A stretch of 64,000 bases of DNA, taken from NCBI RefSeq assembly GCF_900167475.1, contig NZ_LT796768.1, positions 2,604,001 to 2,668,000 on the forward strand, in the 5' to 3' direction. The translations under genes were made by a program, and so were the position numbers. The notes beneath the pieces were generated by a model that saw only the letters and a list, made by a program, of their open reading frames with translations, had not been told where the DNA came from and ran no database searches. Positions 1 to 6,045 of the stretch are shown here, in pieces (positions within the stretch are counted from its first letter, which is position 1; each line of letters opens with the position of its first letter). This DNA is from Aeromicrobium choanae (lineage in GTDB: Bacteria; Actinomycetota; Actinomycetes; Propionibacteriales; Nocardioidaceae).

Positions 1-680
1 ACGGGTCCGGGCCTGACGTGCCATCGTCCCGGTGCCTCGTCGACGACCACGCCGCGGCGGCGCAGCTCGGTGACGGTCATCGCGACGTGCGGCAGCGACG
101 GCAGCGAGCCGCCCTCGTGGCGCAGGTCGAGTCCCTCGGTGAAGCGGGGAGCGACGAGCAGCAGCGCCGAGACGAACTGGCTGGACGCGGAGGCGTCGAC
201 CGTGAGGTCGCCGCCGCGGACGCTGGAGGACCCGTGGACCGTGAACGGCAGGCTGCCCCTCCCGTCGTCGTCCACGCGCACGCCGAGGTCGCGCAGGCTC
301 GAGATGGTGGTGGCCATCGGCCGTTCACGGGCGCGCGGGTCGCCGTCGAACCGTGCCGGCCCCGTGCCGAGAGCCGCGACGGGAGGCACGAAGCGCATGA
401 CCGTGCCCGCCAGGCCGCAGTCGACCTCGGCCGATCCGACCGGCTCGATCGGGGTGACCGACCAGGACTGCGGTCCACGTTCGACCCGCGCTCCGAGCGA
501 CACGAGCGCGTCGGCCATCAGCTCGGTGTCACGGGCGGCGAGCGGCAGGTGAACGGTGGAGGGCCCGTCGGCGAGGGCCGCCAGCACGAGGGCTCGGTTG
601 GTCTGGGACTTGGACCCCGGCAGCAGGACGTCGGCGTCGACGGCCGCCGAGGGATGGGGAGCGTTCCAGTCCATCCTCAT
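1..680 (-). CDS. aroA: 3-phosphoshikimate 1-carboxyvinyltransferase (EPSP synthase), 3' part beyond window
   Basis: Transfers the enolpyruvyl group of PEP to shikimate-3-phosphate, the sixth step of the shikimate pathway, in the cytoplasm. About 226 N-terminal residues of an enzyme of roughly 430 are present; the rest lies left of base 1. Visible are the PEP/shikimate-binding motif LPGSKSQTNRALVLAAL near residue 20, GLAGTVMRFVPPVAAL near residue 90 (family NAGTxxRxL) and DASASSQFVSALLL near residue 170. The ATG at 680 overlaps the upstream stop codon as ATGA, suggesting translational coupling to the DoxX-like gene; an in-frame ATG at 674 with GGGG upstream is the alternative start. In Mycobacterium aroA is likewise close to the SRAP and sigH genes. 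Identity is clear from the motifs. Confidence 0.93.
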   Translation of the reverse strand, partial: MRMDWNAPHPSAAVDADVLLPGSKSQTNRALVLAALADGPSTVHLPLAARDTELMADALVSLGARVERGPQSWSVTPIEPVGSAEVDCGLAGTVMRFVPPVAALGTGPARFDGDPRARERPMATTISSLRDLGVRVDDDGRGSLPFTVHGSSSVRGGDLTVDASASSQFVSALLLVAPRFTEGLDLRHEGGSLPSLPHVAMTVTELRRRGVVVDEAPGRWHVRPGP

Positions 681-1162
681 CCCCGCAGGTCGTCGAGCTG
701 GTCGACGATCGTGTCCTTGGCGGCGACGGCGGTGTTCCTCGCACGCCGGCCGAGCCACGGCTTGTGCGGATCCGGGTCGAGGGTCGACAGCAGCAGGCCG
801 CCGGTGAGCGACACGTTCTTCATGAAGTGCGTGAACTGGTTCTTGCGGGCGACGGGGTCGGACTCGTTCCAGAACGGGTGCCCGGCCACCGTGGTGGCGG
901 GCATCGTGGCGGCCAGCACGAGCGCGGAGGTGCGGGGGAGGTGGCCGGTGGCCAGCGCGGCACCCGCGGCCACGTGCACCGCGGAGTTCAGCCGGATGAG
1001 GTTGGTGGGCGAGAGGTTCGCCTGGGGCGCGACCTTGCGCAGCACGTCGGCCACGGGCTGGGCCTTGTGGGCGAGCGCGCCGGGCTTGCGCAGCGCCATC
1101 ACCCCGCCGGAGATGAACATCGAGGCGAGCATCGGACGGGCCACCGCGCGCAGGAGAGTCAT
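677..1162 (-). CDS. DoxX family membrane protein
   Basis: A 161-residue protein with several hydrophobic helices: residues 5-25, about 60-80 and 80-95, and 112-128. The start MTLLRAVARPMLASMFISGG is typical of actinobacterial DoxX-like proteins, which are integral membrane proteins of mostly unknown function; some members are linked to redox or thiosulfate metabolism. It is directly upstream of aroA and overlaps it by 4 nt, so the two are probably co-transcribed. There is no strong Shine-Dalgarno; a weak CATGAT hexamer lies 6 nt before the ATG. The family assignment is from overall pattern; the substrate cannot be told. Confidence 0.8.
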   Translation of the reverse strand: MTLLRAVARPMLASMFISGGVMALRKPGALAHKAQPVADVLRKVAPQANLSPTNLIRLNSAVHVAAGAALATGHLPRTSALVLAATMPATTVAGHPFWNESDPVARKNQFTHFMKNVSLTGGLLLSTLDPDPHKPWLGRRARNTAVAAKDTIVDQLDDLRG

Positions 1163-1204
1163 GGGTTCATCATGCCGCAGAGCGAGCCTGCTGCCGAGGT
1201 GCGC

Positions 1205-3379
1205 TCAGCCGAAGGTGCCCGAGAGCGAGGTCCCGGCGCTGGTGACCGAGTAGTTGCCCTGCGGGAACCACAAGGTGTTGATCCGCAGCGCCGGGAGGGT
1301 GCGGTTCGCCGCGACCGGCTGGGCGCAGTTGAGGGTGGGACTGAACTGGCCGGCGCGCGTGCACGTCCAGCCGGACCACCCGGTGATGACCTCGACGCCC
1401 GGGAAGCCGCCGGTGAACGTGACGCGCATCTGCACCGTCTGGCCGGGCCGGACGTCGGGGCCGACCGTGAACGCGAACGTCGTCGAGAGCCAGCTCGTCG
1501 TCGCCGTGGCGCGCACCGTGGTGTCGGTCGGGGCGGGATCAGTCGGCTGAGTGGTGGGCTCGGTGGTGGGTTCCGTGGTCGGTTCCGTGGTGGGCTCGGT
1601 GGTGGGTTCCGTGGTCGGCTCGGTGGTGGGCTCGGTGGTGGGTTCCGTGGTCGGCTCGGTGGTGGGCTCGGTGGTCGGTTCCGTCGTGGGTTCCGTGGTC
1701 GGCTCGGTGGTCGGTTCCGTGGTCGGCTCGGTCGTGGGCTCGGTGGTCGGTTCCGTGGTCGGCTCGGTCGTGGGCTCGGTCGTGGGCTCGGTCGTGGGTT
1801 CCGACGTCGGCTCCGTGGTCGGCTGCTCGTCAGTGGGCTCGGTCGTGGGTTCCGATGTCGGTTCCGTCGTGGGCTCGGTGGTCGGTTCCGTGGTCGGCTC
1901 GGTCGTGGGTTCCGAGGTCGGCACCGTGGTGGGCTCGGTCGGCTCCGGAGTCGGGATGGTGGTCGGCTCCGGCGTGGGTTCCGTGGTCGGTTGAGTGGTG
2001 GGCTCGGTGGTCGGTTCCGTGGTCGGTTCCGTGGTCGGCTCGGTGGTGGGCTCGGTGGTGGGCTCGGTGGTGGGCTCGGTGGTGGGCTCGGTGGTCGGCT
2101 CGGTGGTGGGTTCCGTGGTCGGTTCCGTGGGCTCTGTCGTCGGCACGGGCGGAAGGGGCTGGGGCTCGTCGGGGAGCGGCTCGTCGGTCACCGGATCGTC
2201 GACCGGCGGCTCCTCGTCGCCGTCGTCGACGGCCTCGTCCTCGACGGGGTCCTGCCACACCATCGGATCGGGAAGGGCGCCCACGTCGGGGGCCGTGGCA
2301 TCCGCGGCGGCACCGCCCGGCAGGGTCGCGGCACCGGGGGCCGCGGCGCGGGTGGTGTTCTCCACGGCCGGCGGGCGGTCCACGGTGATGAGGGCGGTCG
2401 CACCGGCGATCACGACGAAGCTGGCCGCGGCGCCGGCGGCGATGCCCGCCGGGCCGATCGTGCCCAGGACCCCCATGAAGCCCGACGTCGAACCACCAGC
2501 GGCACCCGCTCCTCCGCCGGCACCACCACCGCCCCCGCCGTTGCCGTTCCCGCCGGCACCGGCAGCGGCCAGGCCGCCCGCGGCACCGGTGCCCTGCAGG
2601 TATCCCGCAGCGGCGGTGCCGAGGATGGCCGGGGCCAGGATGCCGGCCAGGCCGTGGTTGAAGTCCTGGAGCTCGAGGTACAGGCCCATGCACGCGCGGC
2701 AGTCGTCGAGGTGACGCTGCACCTTGCCCGCGTCGCGGCGCGACAGCCCGCCACGCACGAACGCGCCCAGGTTGCCGATCGCGAACTGGCACTCGGGCGT
2801 CGTCGTGGGGACGAGGTGCTTCTGGAGATAGGCCTGGCGCAGGCCCTCACGCGCCCGGTACGCCAGGGCCGAGACGCTGTTCGCGCTCATCCCCAGCATC
2901 GGCGCGATCTCGGCCGGCTTCTGTCCCTCCACGTCGAGGTGCCACAGCACCATCTGCCAGCGCTCCGGGAGCGAGGCGAACGCCTCGGCGGTGGTGGTGC
3001 GCTCGAACCCCAGCTCGGCGGTGTCGACGAAGTCGACCCGGCCGTCCAGCTCGAACTGGTCGTCGGTGGGGCGCTCGCGGGTGACCGCGCGGATGCGGTC
3101 GACGTGCAGCCGGCGGACCGCGGTGAGCAGGTAGGCGCGGAAGGACTCCTGCGGTCCGCCGCCCTTCTGGACCGTGACCAGCACCTTGGTGAACGCCTCG
3201 GCGACGAGGTCGTCGGCGTCGGCACCGCGCATCAGCTGGCGTGCCAGGCGCAGCGCCGCGCCCTGGTGGCGGGTGTAGAGGTCGCCGTAGGCAGCCGAGT
3301 CGCCCTCGCGGACCGCGGTCAGCAGGTCGGCGTCGCTGCGCTCGTGACCCAGGGCAGGGGAGGAGGCGTCGAGTGTCAC
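1205..3379 (-). CDS. Membrane-tethered ECF sigma factor fused to zinc-finger, TEPT-repeat stalk and extracytoplasmic domain
   Basis: 724 residues from a GTG start. Residues about 20-100 form sigma region 2 ([17 protein letters not shown]), and about 136-186 sigma region 4 with a helix-turn-helix ([33 protein letters not shown]). Residues 197-230 hold a zinc-finger anti-sigma motif, C197 then H223xxxC227xxC230. A Gly/Ala-rich linker (about 258-300) leads to one membrane helix (310-333), an acidic stretch (335-412), about 50 TEPT-type repeats (414-617) and a 107-residue C-terminal domain with two Cys ([14 protein letters not shown]). The layout predicts sigma and zinc-finger domains in the cytoplasm and a long rod carrying a sensor-like domain outside. 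ECF families with a fused zinc finger and membrane or carbohydrate-binding extensions are known (ECF52 is one example); membership here is inference. A TAGACT hexamer upstream is the likely -10. Confidence 0.85.
1529..2140 (-). repeat. 12-nt minisatellite encoding (TEPT)n
   Basis: About 51 tandem units encoding T-E-P-T with rare variants ([22 protein letters not shown]). At DNA level the unit is a 12-mer alternating synonymous codons (GGCTCGGTGGTG / GGTTCCGTGGTC on the plus strand). The even periodicity across 612 bp makes it prone to slippage, and the copy number may differ between strains or be mis-assembled. It forms a Pro/Thr-rich, acidic, extended stalk of the sigma fusion protein. Confidence 0.95.
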
Positions 3380-3444
3380 TGCCTGCCCCTTTCCCGAGTG
3401 GTCGCGTGGGTGCCCACGCGTGACCTCGGTCGGCCACGGTCCTC

Positions 3445-3450
3445 AGTCTA
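3445..3450 (-). promoter_or_regulatory. Putative -10 (TAGACT) of the sigma-fusion gene
   Basis: TAGACT on the minus strand lies about 65 nt before the GTG start at 3379, giving a leader of roughly 60 nt. No convincing -35 was recognised. Confidence 0.4.
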
Positions 3451-3647
3451 GGTGCCCGCCGCGCTGCTGTCCGTGGTTCCGGTGGCCCTTTGTGACTAGC
3501 CGATCGGACCTGTTTTTGCCGGTGCCGACAGCGTGAACTCACCGTTACCCACGATCGGTGCGGAAAGTCGCGTCATGGGGCAACCGGTGGCCCGTCCCCT
3601 AGGTGTCACACGGCGACCACGCCCGGCCCTTGCGAGAGGAGGCACGG

Positions 3648-4295
3648 ATGAACCCCTTCGACGTCAGTTACGTCGACCTGGACTCGGCTGTCCGTGCCGG
3701 CCGGGTGGACGCAGTGGACGTTGCACACGAGGTGGGAGCGAGTGCAGCGTCTCTCGGAGTCCCGCTCCACGAGGTCCTCGACCGCGTGGAGAGGGCCTTC
3801 GACGGCCTCGAACCGTCGTTCGCGATGGTCCGTGGGGTCGCCGTGGCGTGGGCCGAGACGTCCCGGGCGCTGCAGCTCGAGACGTCGTGCGAGGACCCGC
3901 TGACCCAGTTGTCGACCCTGGCGCACCTGCGGCACAGCCTGGACGGGCTGTACCGCGGGGCGATCAGGGACGACTCCACGGTCACGGATCGTCATGGTCT
4001 CGTCGTGGTCGAGCTGCCCCGGCAGGCCGGCCAGGTGCTCGAGCAGGCGCTGCACGCGGTCGACGTGAGTGTCGCCCTGCGGACGGCGTTCCCGGGCGAC
4101 GAGGTCATCGCGCAGCTGAGCCCACGACGCTTCTGCGTCCTGGCCGAACGTCGTCGGCTGGACCAGCCGACGCTGAGCCTGGTCACCGTCCTGCTGCGCC
4201 GGACGTTCGAGTCGCCCCCACCGCGGGTGTGGCTCGAGCTGCTGCCGCCGGTTGCACAGGACGTGACCTGGGTGCTCGACGCACTCACCGGTTGA
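3648..4295 (+). CDS. Protein with degenerate GGDEF-like domain
   Basis: 215 residues. The ATG at 3648 is chosen because a strong GAGAGGAGG lies just upstream; upstream in-frame starts lack one. The stretch CEDPLTQLSTLAHLRHSL (about residues 81-98) mirrors the start of diguanylate cyclase GGDEF domains (DPLTGLxNRxxLxxxL), and FPGDEVIAQLSPRRFCVLAE later in the protein resembles a decayed active-site loop followed by the usual strand. The GG(D/E)EF signature is not intact, so cyclase activity is unlikely. The N-terminal 80 residues are not recognised. It sits on its own between the divergent sigma-fusion gene and the SRAP gene. A regulatory, possibly nucleotide-binding role is inference. Confidence 0.7.
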   Translation: MNPFDVSYVDLDSAVRAGRVDAVDVAHEVGASAASLGVPLHEVLDRVERAFDGLEPSFAMVRGVAVAWAETSRALQLETSCEDPLTQLSTLAHLRHSLDGLYRGAIRDDSTVTDRHGLVVVELPRQAGQVLEQALHAVDVSVALRTAFPGDEVIAQLSPRRFCVLAERRRLDQPTLSLVTVLLRRTFESPPPRVWLELLPPVAQDVTWVLDALTG

Positions 4296-4365
4296 CCGGC
4301 GGGGTCCGCCCCCATCTCGGGTGTGGCGGAACCCGCCGGGCGGCCGGAGCGTCGGTCGTCGCGCC

Positions 4366-4371
4366 TAGGCT
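4366..4371 (+). promoter_or_regulatory. -10 TAGGCT, leaderless start of SRAP gene
   Basis: TAGGCT ends 7 nt before the ATG at 4379 and no Shine-Dalgarno is present, so transcription probably begins at or next to the start codon. Confidence 0.6.
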
Positions 4372-4378
4372 GGGTCGC

Positions 4379-5086
4379 ATGTGCGGCCGTTACGCGACGT
4401 CCCGGACCCCGACCACCCTCGTCGACGACTTCGAGGCCGATCTCGGCGACCTGTTCGCCGACACCGGCCCCGACTTCAACCTCGCGCCCACCAAGCCGGC
4501 GCCCCTCGTGGTGGCGCGCTCCGGCGACGCGGGCCCGCGACGCGAGCTCGTCACCGCCAAGTGGGGCCTGGTCCCGTCCTGGGCCAAGGACCCCTCGATC
4601 GGCAACCGCCTCATCAACGCCCGCAGCGAGACCGTCGCCGAGAAGCCGTCCTTCCGGTCGGCCTTCGCCAAGCGGCGCGCGATCGTCCCGGCCGACGGGT
4701 TCTACGAGTGGTACCAGCCCGAGGGGCAGCCCGGCGCGAAGCCGCCGCCGAAGCAGCCCTTCTACATGAGCGCCGAGGGCGGCCTCGGCCTCGCCGGGCT
4801 CTACGAGTTCTGGAAGGACCCCGAGGGGGAGTGGCTGCTGACCTACACGATCCTCACCACGTCGGCCGAGGGCGAGGACGGGCGCATCCACGACCGTGCG
4901 CCACTGATCGTCGGTCCCGAGGTCGCCGAGCACTGGCTCGCGGCCGAGCCGTGGCCCGAGGCGCTCGAGCACCTGGTGCCCGCCACGCCGGGCACGCTGC
5001 GCACGTGGCCGGTGTCCACCGAGGTCAACAACGTGCGCAACAACGGCCCCGAACTGGTCGAGCCGCTCCCGATCGAGGGGGAATAG
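4379..5086 (+). CDS. SOS response-associated peptidase (SRAP/YedK, HMCES family)
   Basis: 235 residues starting MCGRYA. Cys2, exposed after Met removal, is the family's catalytic and crosslinking residue; these proteins bind abasic sites in single-stranded DNA and form a protective thiazolidine link. Other signatures are FNLAPTKPAP, WGLVPSWAKD, NARSETVAEKPSFR, CxxxR-like RRAIVPADGFYEWY and IHDRAPLIV carrying the active-site His. Length is normal. The mycobacterial orthologue is also near aroA and sigH. The last codons overlap a SigR-type promoter for the next gene, so the two genes are adjacent but probably separately transcribed. Confidence 0.93.
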   Translation: MCGRYATSRTPTTLVDDFEADLGDLFADTGPDFNLAPTKPAPLVVARSGDAGPRRELVTAKWGLVPSWAKDPSIGNRLINARSETVAEKPSFRSAFAKRRAIVPADGFYEWYQPEGQPGAKPPPKQPFYMSAEGGLGLAGLYEFWKDPEGEWLLTYTILTTSAEGEDGRIHDRAPLIVGPEVAEHWLAAEPWPEALEHLVPATPGTLRTWPVSTEVNNVRNNGPELVEPLPIEGE

Positions 5087-5125: not shown

Positions 5126-5785
5126 ATGCTCGCATGCCCCGTACGTCCTGCCGCAGTAGGCTGGGCGACGATGACTGACGACACCGTCGTGGACCCGTCG
5201 ACCGAGACCACGGAGGAGCGCCAGGCCCGATTCGAGGCCGACGCCCTTCCCTTCCTCGACCAGCTGTACTCGGCCGCTCTGCGCATGACCCGCAATCCCC
5301 AGGATGCCGAAGACCTGGTGCAGGAGACCTATGCCAAGGCGTTCAGCGCCTTCCACCAGTTCAAGCCCGGCACGAACCTGAAGGCCTGGCTGTACCGGAT
5401 CCTCACCAACACCTACATCAACCACTACCGCAAGAAGCAGCGCCAGCCCCAGCAGGTGACCGACGAGGTCGAGGACTGGCAGATCGCGGCGGCGGCGGCC
5501 CACAGCTCCTCGGGGCTGAAGTCCGCGGAGATGGAGGCGCTCGAGCGCCTGCCCGACTCCGACGTGAAGGACGCGCTCCAGCAGCTGCCCGAGGACTTCC
5601 GCTACGCGGTGTACCTGGCCGATGTGGAGGGCTTCCCCTACAAGGAGATCGCGGAGATCATGGACACGCCGATCGGCACCGTGATGTCGCGTCTCCACCG
5701 CGGACGGCGTCAGCTGCGCGAGCTGCTCACCGACTACGCCCGCGACCGCGGTATGAAGGTTCCTGCTGGAGGTGACGCGAAGTGA
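5126..5785 (+). CDS. sigR: ECF sigma factor of the SigR/SigH thiol-oxidative stress family
   Basis: 219 residues from the ATG at 5126 or 204 from the ATG at 5171 ([10 protein letters not shown]). Directs RNA polymerase to thiol-stress promoters and is held inactive by RsrA under reducing conditions. Region 2 is [29 protein letters not shown], with [20 protein letters not shown]; region 4 contains [20 protein letters not shown] and [18 protein letters not shown]. The long form has a textbook AGGAGG 6 nt before its ATG and a SigR-type promoter immediately upstream. The short form matches mycobacterial SigH in length and follows a TAGGCT -10 by 8 nt. This mirrors the Streptomyces SigR/SigR' isoforms, with a 15-residue extension here. 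The stop codon overlaps rsrA. Confidence 0.95.
5157..5162 (+). promoter_or_regulatory. Second sigR promoter, TAGGCT -10 for the short form
   Basis: TAGGCT lies 8 nt before the ATG at 5171 inside the start of the long reading frame. It would give a leaderless mRNA for the short SigR isoform, presumably from the housekeeping sigma factor. Confidence 0.55.
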
Positions 5786-6045
5786 GCTGCGAAGGACCCG
5801 ATTGCGAGAAGGCCCTGGAGAACCTCTACGTCTTCCTCGACCACGAGATCGACACCGCCAGCTGCGACGAGATCCAGTCCCACCTCGACGACTGCTCGGA
5901 CTGCCTGAACGAGTACCACCTCGAGCAGATCGTCAAGGCCCTCGTGGGCCGGTCGTGCACCGAGGTGGCGCCCACCCCCCTGCGGGAGAAGGTCATGTTC
6001 CAGATCCGCACGATCCAGGTGGAGATCCGCACCGAGTCCCCCTGA
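5782..6045 (+). CDS. rsrA: Redox-sensing zinc anti-sigma factor RsrA
   Basis: 87 residues from a GTG that overlaps the sigR stop as GTGA. Binds and inhibits SigR; oxidation of its zinc-site cysteines to a disulfide releases the sigma factor. The zinc ligands are visible as C8 and H34xxxC38xxC41 (HLDDCSDC); C3, C28 and C59 occupy the places of further cysteines in Streptomyces RsrA. Length and residue spacing match the family. Co-transcribed with sigR, so the SigR-type promoter gives a negative feedback loop. A perfect hairpin follows the gene. Confidence 0.95.

Follow-up and report, generated by a model that had tools for sequence, protein, structure and literature searches.

The window analysed in this study, a stretch of 64,000 nucleotides of Aeromicrobium choanae, carries a gene in which an ECF sigma factor appears to be joined to its own inhibitor and to a long surface part. 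The question raised by this locus is how such a one-piece protein could be switched and which promoters it would serve. For ECF52-type switches, proteolytic release after surface sensing has been proposed, and their target promoters and signals are unsettled. We consider it fairly probable that the protein is a membrane-tethered, self-inhibited sigma factor of the ECF52 type, which would be released by cleavage and would activate promoters of the form CGTCAY-N16-CGTY.

The frame at 1205-3379 (minus strand) is one intact, real gene, with a GTG start, 724 codons plus a stop codon and no internal stop. Other long frames are open on this GC-rich DNA, such as one of 895 amino acids on the plus strand (764-3451), and the minus-strand frame was preferred because of its family matches and because homologues share its layout. 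The genome of A. choanae that contains it consists of one contig (3.42 Mb), and a close relative, also of one contig (G017, 3.13 Mb), has the same unbroken layout in a protein of 813 amino acids, so that an assembly break is unlikely. The copy of Aeromicrobium flavum (L063) is no test of the frame, since its contig stops inside the repeat. An artefactual origin of the frame, from GC-rich repeats or from a misassembly fusing two genes, could appeal to the long repeats, to the several other open frames and to that broken contig, but the uninterrupted layout of G017 and of other complete relatives makes it hardly conceivable. These relatives also confirm that the sigma part and the repeat part are truly joined, as proposed in a preliminary description of the sequence.

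Sigma region 2 (residues 34-101; 3077-3280, minus strand; PF04542 Sigma70_r2, E 6.7e-10), sigma region 4 (residues 132-178; 2846-2986, minus strand; PF08281 Sigma70_r4_2, E 1e-6) and a zinc-binding anti-sigma domain (residues 197-230; 2690-2791, minus strand; PF13490 zf-HC2, E 8.7e-6) were found in the same frame, all three exceeding the Pfam cut-offs (26.2 bits against 22.2 for zf-HC2). The protein also matched the NCBIfam model of ECF sigma factors, TIGR02937, with 66.5 bits (cut-off 42.9). The only cysteines are 197, 227, 230, 673 and 685, and the finger is composed of C197 and H223-x3-C227-x2-C230. All four positions are invariant in alignment A1 (28 rows); in alignment A3 (60 rows) H223, C227 and C230 are invariant and C197 is kept at 90% or more. 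Architecture and Pfam and NCBIfam matches thus bear out the one-piece ECF sigma factor with fused zinc anti-sigma domain of the preliminary description, including both sigma regions in a single frame and the HxxxCxxC finger. A structural search with the AlphaFold model of the N-terminal part (pTM 0.45; pLDDT below 50 over residues 265-340) placed ECF sigma factors at the top, among them those of the sigmaE-RseA and SigW-RsiW complexes (E 5e-5 to 9e-4), which superpose only partly, with rmsd of 15-23 for the sigma-wide matches. Given the low pTM and the partial superposition, the model does not fix the arrangement of sigma factor and anti-sigma domain.

Instead of the single helix of the preliminary description, two hydrophobic stretches were found. 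The first (residues 243-261; 2597-2653, minus strand; Kyte-Doolittle 1.57) is conserved, with P250, L253, G254 and Y260 invariant in A3 (60 rows), and in the AlphaFold model, where the helices of the finger span residues 195-208, 214-226 and 228-253, it continues the third helix. The second is a predicted membrane helix (residues about 309-331; 2387-2455, minus strand) with a hydropathy of 2.14 over residues 313-331. According to the section of PMC7406223 used here, helix 4 of class I anti-sigma domains binds sigma region 2. Since residues 243-261 adjoin the finger, are conserved and extend its helix, they more probably represent this helix 4 than a membrane crossing, and residues about 309-331 would be the sole crossing. 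Were both 243-261 and 313-331 to cross the membrane, the tip would lie on the inner side.

The outer half is formed by a stalk and a tip. The stalk (residues 386-617; 1529-2224, minus strand) is first acidic and then built of TEPT repeats, the tandem repeat proper occupying 1542-2130, and contains 94 Thr, 64 Pro and 50 Glu. EPTT is found 39 times in the protein, which matches the Pfam PT repeat, and the TEPT stretch extends over about 205 residues, close to the 200 or so first described. The last 107 residues (618-724; 1208-1528, minus strand) hold the only two outer cysteines, C673 and C685, and correspond to the Cys-containing terminal domain also recognised at that stage.

When 13 aligned Aeromicrobium-type tips were searched, DUF11 was matched by three (best E 3.8e-5), no carbohydrate-binding family was matched by any, that of the window included, and the window protein's own tip gave no family match. 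The latter is without the DPxPxND end found in the tips of relatives. The model of residues 618-724 is an eight-strand beta sandwich of moderate quality (pLDDT 74.3, pTM 0.67), for which the best Foldseek match was an adhesin domain (E 5.7e-4), followed by a cohesin-like module and mixed beta domains; a cellulose-binding domain came only at rank 15. On this comparison the tip is best classified as Ig/DUF11-like, related to DUF11 through its relatives, and not as NPCBM. The preliminary description had proposed a report on the cell surface or on polysaccharide binding and had suggested comparing a predicted structure of the tip with carbohydrate-binding folds; in that comparison the adhesin and cohesin-like beta sandwiches rank ahead. 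A tip that binds polysaccharide, in a protein reporting on carbohydrate as proposed for ECF52, is in our opinion improbable. The NPCBM domains of close architectural kin and the match at rank 15 speak for it, but with none of the 13 aligned relatives carrying a carbohydrate-binding family, three carrying DUF11 and an adhesin domain as top structural match, even if obtained with a moderate model, polysaccharide sensing is left unsupported. The broader claim, that the protein reports on the cell surface in general, is possible. Among other tips, a genus member (L024) has a DPVDPV stalk followed by an unrelated short tip, and four Aeromicrobium-type tips (L064, L066, L069 and L090) show a short hydrophobic run at their last residues (LLLL, WFLLL).

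The nearest named relative of the protein is that of A. flavum, with 85% identity over residues 1-340. Queries with the N-terminal part found matches in 58/58 genomes of the genus and the order, ordinary ECF sigma factors included; orthologues were delimited at E 1.2e-97 or lower (3.3e-63 in the next best genus genome) and are present in 25/37 genomes of the genus set. Named genomes were scanned with alignment A2 (12 rows), A1 with its 28 rows being too divergent for a scan, and the best 80 of 571 loci were kept. Nearly all of these are from named Nocardioidaceae (Aeromicrobium, Nocardioides, Marmoricola, Mumia) and a few have names no more precise than order, class or phylum; all are actinobacterial, the phylum to which ECF52 is said to be confined, and the other searches were confined to the class. 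Within these best 80 of 571 loci, H-x3-C-x2-C is kept in 80/80, a membrane segment follows the finger in 74/74 of those long enough to judge, and of 69 complete proteins, 459 to 1769 residues long, 62 have at least two outer cysteines and seven have none. The inner half is constant and the outer half, with its tips, variable among relatives, which suggests how one switch could fit many surface inputs. In the class as a whole, 66/197 genomes gave matches at E 1e-20 or lower; further matches include short frames, which may be unfused ECF sigma factors. Loci and genomes are related by descent, and these counts are not independent events.

In two members of another family (L060 and L061) the finger ligands are kept, whereas sigma region 2 has diverged strongly. 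The genome of A. choanae itself also encodes another fused sigma-finger-membrane protein (L062; G000:C1:486962-487870, plus strand), which is 40% identical and has a frame of 662 codons, a W-x-C tip and no copy of the promoter element described below within 700 nt.

The surroundings of the gene are conserved as well. Downstream lies a gene of the DoxX family (677-1162, minus strand), found in 50/80 of the best 80 of 571 loci. Upstream and divergent lies a gene for a protein of 215 amino acids (3648-4295, plus strand), followed by a SRAP domain (Pfam match over 4379-5035, plus strand, within the frame 3533-5086) and, some 1.7 kb away from the fused sigma gene, by a complete SigR-RsrA pair (5126-6045, plus strand), composed of a SigR-type ECF sigma gene (5126-5785, plus strand; TIGR02947) and a RsrA-type anti-sigma gene (5782-6045, plus strand; TIGR03988). 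The divergent gene is upstream of the sigma gene in 74 of the best 80 of 571 loci, in two of which (L122 and L142) both genes run the same way; three of the six loci without it have too little upstream DNA. Beyond this partner, sigR is present in 65/80 of the same loci, two of its 67 matches being the sigma gene itself.

Across the genus set, the divergent gene was found in 25/25 genomes with the orthologue and 0/12 without it (Fisher 5e-10, ignoring shared descent); loss of the whole block may account for part of this co-occurrence, and four of the twelve genomes are below 90% complete. Pfam gave nothing firm for the divergent protein of the window alone. Among 22 aligned members, two matched GGDEF (best E 3.2e-5), and the profile of the family reached FimX at E 0.018. 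The protein is similar to a GGDEF domain that lacks the signature and, because so few members reach GGDEF and FimX is reached only at that value, it is termed GGDEF-like with moderate confidence.

The proximity of sigR-rsrA and the intact finger invite another explanation, namely that the zinc or redox chemistry of the protein's own finger switches the sigma factor, as in RsrA, and that the outer part serves for anchoring alone or for some other purpose. SigR-RsrA also combines an ECF sigma factor with a zinc anti-sigma; it differs in being two separate proteins without membrane part or stalk, and both SigR and RsrA are soluble. In favour of a redox switch, the four zinc-ligand positions are kept in 28/28 rows of A1, and the outer domains are highly variable, with 7/69 complete proteins lacking an outer cysteine, as if their identity mattered little. 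We nevertheless regard it as unlikely: the membrane segment is kept in every protein long enough to judge (74/74), proximity to sigR-rsrA is no evidence for shared chemistry, and zinc motifs occur in about half of membrane anti-sigma factors, where a structural role is suggested in the portion of PMC7406223 available.

The preliminary description had named ECF52 as an established example of fused families, and this proved the right comparison, borne out by the architecture and by a tree that places the protein with NPCBM-bearing proteins of the SCO4117 type. The type case of ECF52 is SCO4117 of Streptomyces coelicolor. The ECF core, fused zinc finger, membrane segment (a helix after the finger by hydropathy), proline-rich extension and terminal domain recur in both; for the carbohydrate-binding C-terminal domain of ECF52 there was no match in the window protein (Pfam; Ig/DUF11-like in the fold search). 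Seven SCO4117-type proteins (L318-L323 and L331, from genomes of 6-10 Mb) are 40-46% identical to it over 233-245 residues and show, by eye, the order sigma, finger motif, membrane segment, proline-rich stretch and NPCBM-like tip. In two of them Pfam gave NPCBM at E 3.2e-27 and 1.3e-30, together with an adjoining TetR gene (TetR_N); one of this pair passes zf-HC2 and the other Sigma70_r4_2, neither passing both (E 0.001). One of the checked loci also has a gene for a pyridine-nucleotide oxidoreductase, with a weak NDH2 match below the family cut-off; an oxidoreductase gene is presumably a neighbour in the SCO4117 arrangement too. In the tree, obtained by maximum likelihood, a 100/99 branch separated all 43 fused proteins from eight other ECF sigma factors of the A. 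choanae genome, and the window protein was joined with the seven SCO4117-type proteins; this tree has long branches and unsettled bootstrap values, its outgroup is restricted to ECF sigma factors of this genome, and it includes neither SCO4117 itself, nor ECF48/53, nor any other fused ECF group.

The C-terminus of ECF52 is given as a carbohydrate-binding domain in the sections of PMC5826349 consulted, and an excerpt of PMC10766802 assigns such a domain to "some" ECF52 and ECF53 proteins. The window protein belongs to the ECF52 kind, already known and common in Nocardioidaceae, and is designated an ECF52-like variant because no carbohydrate-binding module was recognised in its tip. It differs from SCO4117 in its Ig/DUF11-like tip instead of NPCBM, and in its neighbours: the TetR gene (atrA) adjoining the NPCBM-type ECF52 in the sections of PMC5826349 has no counterpart among the neighbours checked, which instead include the GGDEF-like divergent gene and sigR-rsrA. 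The conserved element of these loci, CGTCAY-N16-CGTY, also differs from the motif CSGYN-17-SRHA given for SCO4117 in the same sections, where both motifs published for ECF52 are called theoretical. Other systems are alike by description. ECF53 and ECF48 have fused zinc-finger and membrane extensions in Actinobacteria, according to the part of PMC8999054 used. IutY of Pseudomonas putida (ECF243) unites sigma and anti-sigma in one membrane protein, as here, and is released by proteolysis (same part of PMC8999054); it differs as a component of iron cell-surface signalling and is likened by description, not by sequence.

The element itself was examined at 79 loci. In the window it reads GCGTCATG-N15-CGTC (3570-3596, plus strand), is directed towards the divergent gene and lies 51 nt before its ATG; the form CGTCAY-N16-CGTY occupies 3571-3596 there. 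CGTCAY-N16-CGTY occurs in this direction in 67/79 loci, the window included, against a shuffled mean of 0.0 at spacer 16 and 0-4 loci at other spacers; a stricter form occurs in 61/79 loci (shuffled mean 0.015). GCGTCAY alone is present in 73/80 of the best 80 of 571 loci, a count that includes chance positions and is replaced by those at fixed spacing. Towards the sigma gene, the same element was found in 26/79 loci, in 23 of them within 60 nt of the start and in 16 ending 8-10 nt before it, the distance that a leaderless transcript of the sigma gene would need. Counting also the variant CGTGAC, 38/79 loci have a sigma-ward copy; this variant occurs 13 times at spacer 16 and is less clean, since it is also seen at spacers 17 (4) and 13 (3). 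In the window, neither the element nor the variant is directed towards its own sigma gene.

Outside Nocardioidaceae, sigma-ward copies were present in 2/5 loci of family f3 and in both loci examined of family f39 (one exact, one CGTGAT), and no such element was found upstream in the seven SCO4117-type loci. Fifteen of 16 paralogue loci, that of A. choanae included, have no element within 700 nt, and the remaining one (L058) has it 579 nt away; in genome G023 a copy stands just before a fused-sigma paralogue (L245). ECF sigma factors commonly act on their own promoter. For this reason, and given the copies towards the sigma gene, CGTCAY-N16-CGTY would be the promoter element used by this sigma group.

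Taken together with the anatomy, a switch of the following form may be proposed. Sigma regions 2 and 4 would be held in the cytoplasm by the zinc anti-sigma domain that directly follows them, one membrane helix would take the chain outward, and the Thr/Pro/Glu stalk would span the wall, with a small Ig/DUF11-like domain, able to form a disulfide, at its tip. A signal received by this domain or by the stalk would lead to cleavage first on the outer side of the membrane and then within it; the released sigma part would act on CGTCAY-N16-CGTY promoters of the divergent GGDEF-like gene, of its own gene in many relatives and of a small further set. Cleavage with release of the sigma part is likely by analogy with SCO4117 and IutY, for which a release model and truncation data are reported in the sections used of PMC5826349 and PMC8999054; proteolytic release has also been proposed in print for ECF52, and would be plausible here. 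The genome has M50 protease genes, as do all 14 control genomes, so that their presence is no more than permissive for cleavage.

The exact element was searched in 37 genomes, giving 96 matches against nine for a reversed control, 17 of them at the locus itself by position. With up to two mismatches there were 87 matches against 29 in the control, so that about a third of these would be due to chance. Flanks were fetched for 80 of the 96 matches, the remaining 16 being copies at the locus in other genomes; 54 of the 80 downstream frames formed no family, and the copies outside the locus are a mixture. The genome of A. choanae has two further copies, 3.4 kb apart, before a gene for a protein of 195 amino acids of no known function and an AAA ATPase gene, and this gene pair is kept with the element in the two nearest relatives.

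DUF5667 genes recur downstream of element copies, and 29 of the 31 genomes with such a gene were examined. DUF5667 is taken here to mark RsbN, the anti-sigma factor of BldN, whose box is CGTAAC. A box of this type is present in 27/29 upstream regions of DUF5667 genes, and the element interleaves with it in 9/29 (L363-L368, L379, L380 and L383), as if two sigma factors shared one site. The element was found at DUF5667 genes in 8/19 genomes with the orthologue and 1/10 without it. The chp and rdl genes are targets of BldN. A knockout of SCO4117 lowers these genes according to the part of the literature consulted, an effect that fits a link with BldN and proves nothing. No match to the DUF5667 query was found in the window genome or its two nearest relatives, and on this evidence the link does not apply to these species.

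These boxes raise the possibility that the element is read by another sigma factor, such as an ECF of the BldN type with its similar CGTAAC box. The frequency of the box and its interleaving would agree with this, as would the absence of the element from SCO4117-type loci and genome G030, scored as lacking the orthologue and still having the element at its DUF5667 gene; the assembly of G030 is, however, 84% complete, and its lack of an orthologue may be an artefact. On the other hand, the element keeps a single spacing at both promoters of the sigma/divergent pair, and the window genome has it without any match to the DUF5667 query. Outside the locus, with 0-1 mismatches, it is present in 10/25 genomes with the orthologue and 0/12 without it (Fisher 0.015, ignoring descent; two of the ten sites, in G020 and G026, are possibly coding). 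Recognition by another sigma factor thus appears rather unlikely, if less so than a redox switch or a carbohydrate sensor, and assignment of the element to the fused sigma group is retained.

A wider reading may be offered tentatively, as a possibility that we hold doubtful. In Nocardioidaceae the two genes would form an obligate surface circuit, in which a sigma factor with interchangeable tips drives itself and, back-to-back, the degenerate GGDEF protein, which would feed back or read cyclic di-GMP; in some species, the window's not among them by this search, the sigma factor would also feed the BldN/RsbN branch of development through interleaved promoters. The conserved promoter pair and the co-occurring partner are parts worth following, and the element of fixed spacing together with this partner offers a concrete and inexpensive reporter for release, signal and regulon in relatives with small genomes.

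Minor observations were made on the remaining element copies. A group of five genomes (L179, L209, L218, L226 and L254) was rejected as a promoter, the matched stretch being near-identical between species and reading like coding DNA. In three genomes the recurrent downstream gene is one that we take to be pyrD-like. The gene pair of A. choanae, kept in its two nearest relatives, is located at L148:2778-3396 (195 aa) and L148:6186-7943 (AAA_5 ATPase), the ATPase being matched weakly by models of type II restriction enzymes. In two genomes (L195 and L214) the element lies just upstream of a gene for a SipW-type exported protein, with TIGR04089 confirmed in L195 only.
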